Origin: Leptolyngbyaceae cyanobacterium M33_DOE_097
GTDB taxonomy: Bacteria; Cyanobacteriota; Cyanobacteriia; Leptolyngbyales; Leptolyngbyaceae
Length of the DNA stretch: 43,741 nucleotides
NCBI GenBank assembly: GCA_015296075.1
Contig: DVDV01000162.1
Span: 1 to 43,741 of the forward strand
Direction: 5' to 3'
Part shown: in pieces, positions 9,121 through 39,292 of the stretch
How the letters are laid out: each line of letters begins with the position of its first letter
Numbering within the stretch: position 1 is the stretch's first letter
The notes under the pieces: generated by a model
What the model was told of the DNA's origin: nothing
What the model saw: the letters and a program-made list of their open reading frames with translations, nothing else
Databases searched by the model: none
Made by a program: the position numbers and the translations under genes

Positions 9121-10137
9121 TTAAATAGAGTAGTACAGGGGAAAGGCTTTCGCGTCTTTGGGTTTGACAAAGACCCGTTGCTGCGGTTTCAGGCTGAGTT
9201 GGTCAAAGCGATCGCGGGTCAGGTGAGCCGTTAACACTTGCCCATCATCCAACGTCAGCTCTGCTTGCACCTCCCAGCCCAGATGAATCAGCCGACTGAC
9301 ACGAGCAGGCACCGAAGTTCCATTCGGCGAAACGTCGATCAAAATATCCTGTGGCCGGAGGAAGACCTCTGGGTGAGGCGAATCGAAACCACTGTCCTGA
9401 AACATGCGCGAACTGCTGGGTAGCACATTCACCGGGCCGATAAAGCTCATCACAAAGGCCGACGCAGGATGATCATAAATCTCTGCCGGGGTGCCAATTT
9501 GCTCCACCTTGCCCCGGTTCATAATCACAATTTCGTCGGCCACTTCCATCGCTTCTTCCTGGTCATGGGTAACAAACACAGTCGTCACATGCACTTCATC
9601 ATGCAAACGCCGCAACCAGGCGCGTAAATCCTTCCGCACTTTGGCATCGAGGGCACCAAAGGGTTCATCGAGCAGTAACACTTTTGGCTCCACCGCCAAG
9701 GCTCGCGCTAAGGCCACCCGCTGGCGTTGCCCGCCCGATAACTGAGATGGATAGCGATCGCCCAATCCATTCAGTTGCACCAGCTCTAGCAATTCATCGA
9801 CTCGTGCTTTAACCTTATTGGGGGGCGTTTTGCGTAGCTCTAAACTAAACGCGATATTTTTGCGCACGGTCATGTGCTTAAACAACGCATAGTGTTGAAA
9901 CACAAAACCAATGCCCCGATCTTGCACTGTCCGATAGGTTGCATCTTCTCCAGTCAGCAAAATTCTGCCCGAATCGGGTGTCTCTAACCCGGCAATCAGC
10001 CGCAATAACGTGGACTTACCAGAACCCGAAGGCCCTAGCAAAGCAACCAGCGCACCTGACTCGACTTTCAAGCTGACATCTGACACCGCCTGAAAATCGC
10101 CAAACTGCTTAGAAACGTGCTCGACGACAATCCCCAT
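9121..10137 (-). CDS. cysA: Sulfate/thiosulfate ABC transporter ATP-binding protein CysA
   Basis: This ATPase powers sulfate/thiosulfate uptake. The start at 10137 (338 residues) is preferred over the open frame reaching 10359, because [13 protein letters not shown] is the canonical beginning and the 74 extra residues look non-coding. Walker A is GPSGSGKST (residues 35-43), and signature [15 protein letters not shown], Walker [13 protein letters not shown] and H-loop [13 protein letters not shown] all follow in order. The C-terminal regulatory domain ([16 protein letters not shown] to YYSI) is the CysA-type TOBE fold. No cysT, cysW or sulfate-binding gene is nearby, so its permease partners must be encoded elsewhere. 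A closely related molybdate or other anion importer is the main alternative. Confidence 0.88.
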
Positions 10138-37645: not shown

Positions 37646-38403
37646 TTTGTAGCCAGGCGGTCTATTTGATTAATTTGCTCTTGATTTTGTACGTGTTTCA
37701 GAAACTACGAGCATTTACGGATCGATTTAGCGCTGTTGCTCAATTTTTTGGGAACTTTATGGCGATCGCCACTCAACTAGCCAGTAAATCTCCTGAGATA
37801 GGTGCAGCAAGGGTTACATAGAGACAAGCTTTCATCAACAAATTCCTTTCAAAATATAAAAAATTAAAATCTTTTTTGCAATTCTTTGTGTTTTCCTAGT
37901 TTTTCCACACGCTTTCCACACAGTTTCCCCAGGTTTTCCACAGCTTTTAGCAAGTTTTCCACAGCCGAGTCCTTAAACCAGGGTTTTGAATTATCAAATC
38001 GTCAACGAAATATCTCGACCGTCGTGTCTAAAACCAGACAATTGTTAACTTTTATTCCAAAAAACATTCCCCAAGGAATCATTTGTAACGAAGTATTTCT
38101 CTTCAGGATAATTTAACTTTTCTAGAGCGTTGACAACCGCAGGCAAAGGTAGCAAGAATGAGTCACCTACATCACAAAGTGACATTCATTCCTGAGTTTT
38201 CAAGACTTTCGGTTTTGCAATTTTGTCAAATTTAGGAATGGTGGCACGTTTCTTTTTCGCAAAAAGTGAATTCACCGATTCGCTGATGCATCTACGGGTG
38301 TGTTGTATAGCTCGAATAGATTTTATTTTTCTTTAAATTCAGTTTACTTTTCTAAACATACTGTTTTGGTTGACACCTTACGCATCTTTGAGGACTCTCA
38401 GTT
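37646..38403. other. 758-bp gene-free region containing the origin candidate
   Basis: No gene is supported between 37646 and 38403. The left part holds an AT-rich block (about 37835-37895) and the DnaA-box array (37901-37963). The right part, to 38403, is AT-rich, without repeats I can identify, and must contain the promoter of the DUF2811 gene. Confidence 0.6.
37835..37963 (+). other. Candidate replication origin: phased DnaA-box array with adjacent AT-rich region
   Basis: TTTTCCACA, the consensus DnaA box reported for cyanobacteria, occurs at 37901-37909, 37934-37942 and 37955-37963. CTTTCCACA lies at 37912-37920 and the degenerate GTTTCCCCA at 37923-37931. Starts are spaced 11, 11, 11 and 21 bases apart, all head-to-tail on one strand, so the boxes face the same side of the helix. 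A further weak copy (TTTTAGCAA) fills the 37945 step. Immediately upstream, 37835-37895 is almost all A and T with runs such as AAAATATAAAAAATTAAAAT, a plausible unwinding element. No dnaA or dnaN is in the window, so origin function is inferred. Confidence 0.7.
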
Positions 38404-38607
38404 ATGAGGACAATCACCGTTAGCCTGTTAGCAGAAATTCCAGAAGGTCTGCATCAAGCAGTCGCTCAGTATTTAGACAGTCACCCCACCTGGGATCAAG
38501 ACCGTTTGTTTGCAGCCGCCATCTCGCTGTTTCTATTACAAAGTGGCGAGGAAGATCGACAAACGGCTCAAACCTATCTGGAAAATTTGTTTCAGCGATC
38601 GGTGTAA
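38404..38607 (+). CDS. DUF2811 domain protein
   Basis: This 67-residue protein matches the small cyanobacterial DUF2811 family: ISVLAEIPEELH-type N-terminus (here VSLLAEIPEGLHQAVAQYLD), then SHPTWDQDRLFAAAISLFLL and a C-terminal TAQTYLENLF. It has a short helix-strand layout and no signal peptide. Function is unknown. GAGGA lies about 10 bases before the ATG. It is the first gene right of the origin candidate and precedes hemJ by about 97 bases. Confidence 0.85.
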   Translation: MRTITVSLLAEIPEGLHQAVAQYLDSHPTWDQDRLFAAAISLFLLQSGEEDRQTAQTYLENLFQRSV

Positions 38608-38704: not shown

Positions 38705-39292
38705 ATGGCCTATTACTGGTTTAAGGCGTTTCACATTGTAGGAATTGTTTGTTGGTTTGCTGGCATGTTCTATTTGCCTCGGCTGTTTGTTTACCACGCT
38801 GAAGCTTATGAACAGCCAGAACCTGCACGCACGATTCTCAAAAATCAATATCAAATCATGGAGAAGCGCCTCTATCGCATCATCATGACCCCTGCAATGG
38901 TGTTGACGATCGCGATGGCAATTGGCTTGTTGACCGTCGAGCCAGCCGTGCTGAAAGAAACCTGGTTACACGTCAAAATGACCTGCGTCGCGCTGTTGCT
39001 GGTCTACCATTTTTACTGCCGACGCATCATGAAAAAACTGGCAGCCGATGAATGTAAGATGACCGGCCAACAGTTTCGTTGGTTTAACGAGTTTCCAACC
39101 GTTTTCTTTGTAATTGTTGTGATGTTGGCTGTCTTTAAAAACAACCTGCCAACTGATGCGACAACCTGGTTGATTGCAGCAATGGTACTTGGGATGGCAG
39201 TTGCAATTCAGCTTTATGCCCGCAAGCGTCGCCTCGATCGCGAAAAGTTGACTCCTGAAGAATCGACTTCCTCAGGAGCCGCAGGTGCTTAA
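38705..39292 (+). CDS. hemJ: Protoporphyrinogen IX oxidase HemJ
   Basis: HemJ oxidises protoporphyrinogen IX to protoporphyrin IX, the branch point to haem and chlorophyll. The 195-residue protein has several membrane helices. Conserved features are YYWFKAFHIVGIVCWFAGMF with the essential His in helix 1, the FYLPRLFVYH segment, and MEKRLYRIIMTPAMVLTIAM with basic residues at the second helix. LHVKMTCVALLLVYHFYCRR follows. Length and motifs match the cyanobacterial enzyme. AAGAGG lies 12 bases before the ATG. It is convergent with the PsbP-like gene; TTAA at 39289-39292 serves both stops. Confidence 0.92.
   Translation: MAYYWFKAFHIVGIVCWFAGMFYLPRLFVYHAEAYEQPEPARTILKNQYQIMEKRLYRIIMTPAMVLTIAMAIGLLTVEPAVLKETWLHVKMTCVALLLVYHFYCRRIMKKLAADECKMTGQQFRWFNEFPTVFFVIVVMLAVFKNNLPTDATTWLIAAMVLGMAVAIQLYARKRRLDREKLTPEESTSSGAAGA

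Follow-up and report, generated by a model that had tools for sequence, protein, structure and literature searches.

The repeated sites upstream of the DUF2811 gene of Leptolyngbyaceae cyanobacterium M33_DOE_097 are real and look like binding sites of the replication starter protein DnaA, but they are probably not the start point of the chromosome. They belong to a widespread and old element in front of a small uncharacterised cyanobacterial gene, most likely a DnaA-controlled promoter acting by looping. DUF2811 tends to disappear when dnaA itself is lost, which points to an unknown player in cyanobacterial DNA replication.

We first examined the array within the window, which is the whole stretch of DNA analysed (43,741 nucleotides, contig DVDV01000162.1 of GCA_015296075.1, here contig C34 of a 437-contig, 6.96 Mb draft genome). 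The preliminary description had reported five head-to-tail boxes in steps of 11, 11, 11 and 21 bp beside an AT-rich block at 37835-37895 with DUF2811 rather than dnaN as the gene to the right, and this observation was confirmed. The features are listed in the table below. A count of boxes across the genome, which had been proposed in advance as a check, showed that single boxes were not enriched: 18 sites with at most 1 mismatch were found in the window compared to 17.3 expected, and 64 exact sites in the genome compared to 62 for the reversed letters. The clustering is what is unusual. Three same-strand TTTCCACA with gaps up to 30 bp occurred at only 2 loci of the genome (the window and contig C435), with 0 for the reversed pattern, in 45 of 58 genomes (this one and relatives) with 0 control hits in the 58, and in 129 of 194 genomes of the class with control hits in 2 of 194. 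A search of the window with Rfam at the gathering threshold gave 0 matches, which provided no support for an RNA element.

Table. Features of the DUF2811 upstream region (window coordinates)
Position	Strand	Feature	Remarks
37872..37888	+	AT-rich element TTTTTTGCAATTCTTTG	Counterpart of the TTTTGCAATTCTTATC word upstream of related arrays
37901..37909	+	DnaA box TTTTCCACA	
37912..37920	+	DnaA box CTTTCCACA	
37923..37931	+	Weak box GTTTCCCCA	Weak sites 5' of the strong pair are common in relatives
37934..37942	+	Strong DnaA box TTTTCCACA	Position -21 of the conserved pair
37955..37963	+	Strong DnaA box TTTTCCACA	Position 0; 175 bp from its start to the start of the -35 element
38130..38135	+	-35 element TTGACA	Conserved DUF2811 promoter
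38154..38159	+	-10-like element AAGAAT	Spacer 18, read by hand
38404..38607	+	DUF2811 gene, 67 aa	Pfam PF10929, E 3.2e-27
38705..39292	+	Next gene, UPF0093 membrane protein (HemJ-type)	Also next to DUF2811 in many relatives

To determine where such arrays lie, we retrieved 88 regions around the three-box clusters of the 58 genomes, added four loci of the source genome and compared the flanking genes of the resulting 92 loci. Only the richest array of each retrieved region was analysed, so that the second array of locus L075 was not counted. Within 2 kb, DUF2811 was the nearest of three marker genes for 41 arrays, guaA for 25, dnaN for 15 and none for 11, the last group including two simple-repeat arrays and one further origin-like site (L124). 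In the 41, DUF2811 is on the strand along which the boxes read. Two DUF2811 paralogues of one genome each have their own array (L071 and L074; L084 and L085). A second kind of DUF2811 locus (L071, L084, L088, L098 and others) is followed by a PD-(D/E)XK/Cas4-like nuclease-type ORF, named by eye, instead of the UPF0093 gene, and also has its own DnaA array.

Because these loci had been selected by their boxes, we next assembled a set chosen by DUF2811 protein similarity alone, comprising the best 80 of 486 confirmed loci. The 1 kb upstream held 190 forward YTTTCCACA boxes and 8 reverse, compared to 1 and 0 for the reversed-letter control, and the 1 kb downstream held 8 and 1 (9 over both strands). 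At least one box was present in 77 of 80 loci, at least two in 62 and at least three in 39; two of the three misses (L167, L202) have under 400 bp of upstream sequence, and the third is L200. For alignment, loci were anchored on the last box of a 20-22-bp pair, or otherwise on the last box. Conservation of the spacing in related genomes, which had been named as a test of the array, was borne out: weak boxes tend to stand at about -63, -52 and -42 from the last strong box and a strong one at -21. A degenerate reverse box stands at +44 to +46 in 40 of 78 loci (77 related sites and the window), although the window lacks it. The AT-rich word TTTTGCAATTCTTATC often precedes the array, in most related loci between -65 and -97 from the last box; AATTCTTA-like words occur at -160 to -20 in 42 of 78 loci compared to 3% in shuffles. 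This word may be a site of another protein.

The commonest words between array and gene include CATTGACAA and CACAATGA, which form a promoter consisting of TTGACA, a spacer of 17-19 bp in 72 of 78 (19 in 36, 17 in 19, 18 in 17) and a xAxAAT hexamer. A TTGACA-N17-20-xAxAAT promoter was present within 500 bp upstream in 78 of 81 loci (the 80 and the window), compared to 0.6% of shuffles. A looser pattern allowed every locus to score but gave low values (69, 79) that are misassignments, and it was not used. The analysis was repeated with the nearest forward box, which was found 100-260 bp upstream of the promoter in 77 of 81 loci. The distance to TTGACA has its mode at 183 bp and was 180-186 bp in 43 of the 77, 170-177 in 13, 190-198 in 12, 203-204 in 3, 152 in 3, 162-163 in 2 and 115 in one. 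These peaks are about one helical turn apart, whereas the promoter-to-gene distance varies: with the anchored boxes, vector strength at 10.5 bp was 0.62 for 57 array-promoter distances and 0.51 for the 20 distinct values, compared to 0.14 and 0.12 for promoter-to-start distances. The phase pattern is partly produced by the box-to-box steps of 11 and 21 bp, its peak is broad (10 to 11 bp) and relatedness contributes, so we treat it as supporting and not independent evidence. Relatedness in fact inflates every count, and the contig and whole-genome sets appear to share records (L137 and L064 have the same box spacing on contigs of the same size). The arrangement TTTTCCACA-N150-180-TTGACAA occurs once in the source genome, at this site, and in 35 of 58 genomes, while the reversed pattern scores in 8 of 58, so some matches elsewhere are chance. 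Together, the near-fixed distance suggests that array and promoter form one unit.

The three-box pattern misses many sites. In one family (f32) it was found in 3 of 11 genomes, each within about 1.2 kb of its dnaA, and in a family of small genomes (f2, inferred to be marine from their size) in none, yet single boxes stand at the DUF2811 place. Family f32 keeps a single box 182-184 bp from TTGACA in 8 of 8 fetched loci. Of 12 fetched f2 loci, 10 have an upstream forward box and 5 have an exact reverse box 44-45 bp beyond it; the strict promoter was found in 0 of 12, though by our count 8 of 12 have a TTGAC word 183-199 bp beyond the last box. The three Gloeobacterales-type loci (L168, L171, L176) have a single forward box, one of them 115 bp from the promoter.

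We then asked whether DUF2811 follows dnaA. Of the 194 class genomes, 190 have DUF2811 and 3 lack dnaA (G152, G158, G164), two of which also lack DUF2811, while 2 of 191 dnaA-positive genomes (G060, G159) have no DUF2811 match. Among 90 relatives of G152, a set that again includes all three, dnaA gave no match in 9 and was decayed or doubtful in 3 (G221, one stop; G264, a fragment with a stop; G273, a weak match). DUF2811 was absent in 8 of these 12, a pseudogene with three stops in 1 (G255) and intact in 3 (G158, G267, G221), whereas it was present in 78 of 78 genomes with good dnaA. Fisher p was 3e-10, or 4e-6 if only no-match genomes count as dnaA-less and the pseudogene counts as present. 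Phylogeny was not corrected for, but the losses fall in two genera of f32 and in another genus (g91), where a sister keeps both genes. G158, without dnaA, keeps the AT word and the promoter but has no box, while its congener G280, with dnaA, has three boxes and a distance of 184. The pseudogene locus of G255 has no upstream forward box. In contrast, the draft genome G267 (95% complete) has no dnaA match but keeps the AT word, degenerate boxes and DUF2811, so that these loci point in different directions on whether the boxes depend on DnaA. Of 17 further loci from genomes with a dnaA match (including G221), 14 have box and promoter, 10 of them 181-184 bp apart and the others at 161, 188, 205 and 216. 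Of the remaining three, G093 and G277 have only TTTTCCCCA and no strict promoter, and G272 has three boxes but no strict promoter.

We consider it likely, with good though not full confidence, that the array is the distal control element of the DUF2811 promoter. In this model, DnaA would nucleate on the two strong boxes 21 bp apart and fill the weaker boxes 5' of them at about 11-bp steps, and the complex, on a preferred face of the helix about 17 turns upstream of a conserved sigma-70-type promoter, would contact RNA polymerase by looping, so that DUF2811 transcription follows the amount or nucleotide state of DnaA. What our analysis demonstrates is the boxes, their spacing and orientation, their near-fixed distance to the promoter, their conservation and the co-loss; DnaA binding is inferred from the motif, which DnaA domain IV of Cyanothece protects in vitro at oriC (PMC4674748), and from box loss with dnaA, looping is inferred from phasing, and a role of DUF2811 in DnaA-dependent replication control is inferred from co-loss. 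Neither occupancy of this site nor any effect of DnaA on the transcript was assayed, and 175 bp is far for a classical bacterial activator. We lean only slightly to activation over repression, because spacers are 18 or 19 bp in 53 of 78 promoters and the -10 hexamer is poor. No boxes were found in the 1.6 kb before the Bac_DnaA match of the source genome, on contig C348.

The function of DUF2811 was not examined experimentally, and its fold was only predicted. Two AlphaFold2 models (mean pLDDT 68.4 with 18 alignment rows and 60.2 with 62) placed helices at 14-26, 32-47 and 52-65 after a low-confidence N-terminus. This would fit a ribbon-helix-helix protein, but that reading is ours and unproven: there was no PDB sequence match up to E 10, Pfam gave nothing but DUF2811 below E 0.03, and a Foldseek search of the first model (the second was not searched) gave 17 matches up to E 10 and none up to 0.001, which neither establishes nor excludes the fold. 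A further, tentative possibility is that DUF2811 is a missing regulator of DnaA-dependent initiation in cyanobacteria, a small, possibly DNA- or DnaA-binding protein whose gene is switched by DnaA through a helically phased remote array, forming a feedback loop that is old within the phylum and is dropped repeatedly when DnaA is dropped. What DnaA does in cyanobacteria that no longer need it for replication is an open question (PMC7198777), and factors other than its own ATPase that limit DnaA in S. elongatus are as yet unknown (PMC6478999). A widespread array in front of one uncharacterised gene, co-lost with dnaA, gives one gene and one site with which to address both questions.

DnaA acting as a transcription factor at intergenic boxes outside the origin is known from other bacteria, including eight intergenic regions of Bacillus subtilis (PMC7198777). 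Here, one cluster type is instead tied to one gene family across many cyanobacterial families, about 180 bp upstream of a promoter at preferred helical phase. In the open literature, to which our search was confined without subscription papers or preprints, we found no paper naming DUF2811 and none that by title describes these arrays: DnaA box clusters in cyanobacteria returned only Ori-Finder, DnaA ChIP-seq with DnaA boxes in S. elongatus nothing, DnaA as a cyanobacterial transcription factor nothing on such arrays, and guaA with DnaA boxes nothing on cyanobacteria. The E. coli regions datA, DARS1 and DARS2 (PMC4585315) are likewise non-coding, lie away from oriC, act through DnaA and keep their place, but the array described here is linked to a gene and promoter; an IHF site was not sought, and nucleotide exchange or hydrolysis on DnaA was not measured. 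The arrays at guaA fit this kind better.

The best surviving alternative, which we regard as unlikely, is a DnaA titration, inactivation or reactivation site (datA- or DARS-like) that happens to lie upstream of DUF2811 and whose job is to set free ATP-DnaA, not to control the gene. Clusters of strong and weak boxes outside oriC would fit this, as would the sister class of arrays at the 3' end of guaA, where no promoter is expected. Against it stand the near-fixed phased distance to the promoter while the promoter-to-gene distance varies, the arrays at both DUF2811 paralogues and the co-loss of DUF2811 with dnaA.

Less likely still is a true or auxiliary replication origin. The interpretation in the preliminary description was only partly supported: phased DnaA boxes next to an AT-rich block are supported by more than the window shows, but a chromosome origin is not. 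In favour, phased strong and weak boxes lie beside an AT-rich block, mean AT content is 0.63-0.69 at -120 to -60 compared to about 0.50-0.56 in most other bins (with a second rise, 0.62-0.66, at +80 to +160), and some cyanobacteria replicate from several origins (PMC7198777). However, predicted cyanobacterial origins lie mostly beside dnaN (55 of 68 species; PMC4674748), and dnaN of this genome lies on contig C9 with its own cluster of five exact TTTTCCACA beyond its 5' end, four within about 0.5 kb in both orientations and one about 1.15 kb away. That origin-like locus carries the DnaA-trio TACTACTAC and GTATTTATAC. Across 16 dnaN- or dnaA-side sites (the 15 dnaN arrays and L124) these words occur in 14 and 13, whereas across 78 DUF2811 sites, the window included, they occur in 0 and 0. 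The array shares TTTTCCACA boxes and a nearby AT-rich stretch with cyanobacterial oriC, but its strong boxes run in one direction and it is tied to one gene's promoter. Cumulative GC skew, the test first proposed for the origin, was not computed for this draft, no copy-number or other functional origin data were examined, and the presence of comparable clusters elsewhere, named beforehand as evidence against an origin, was observed at dnaN and guaA. The suggestion that the site might be vestigial is not supported either, as position, spacing and distance to a promoter are conserved in relatives. A last and very unlikely alternative, that the TTTTCCACA words are the operator of another protein with a similar motif, is allowed by the absence of binding data but is opposed by the loss of boxes with retention of the promoter in G158 compared to G280 (one pair), by the lack of a three-box array in the three dnaA-less genomes of 194 (although 62 dnaA-positive ones have none either) and by identity of the motif to the footprinted oriC boxes (PMC4674748).

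The guaA arrays form a second syntenic class and are candidate titration or datA/DARS-like sites. The array of the source genome (C435, 29773-29843; locus L012, about 9270-9350) and 24 related loci point at the guaA stop codon in 25 of 25 cases, mostly with three boxes at 31/21 or 20/21 bp and little else conserved, and by our count the longest ORF on the other side converges in 18 of 25. Another cluster of 3 reverse boxes in the source genome (C126, 14429-14495; L011) lies just beyond the 3' end of a nucleoside-hydrolase-like ORF, named by eye, and was assigned neither to a class nor to relatives. The two simple-repeat arrays, L095 (G026, C1, 4977096-4977299) and L128, are tandem repeats of 14-bp and 13-bp units containing TTTCCACA that mimic DnaA arrays.
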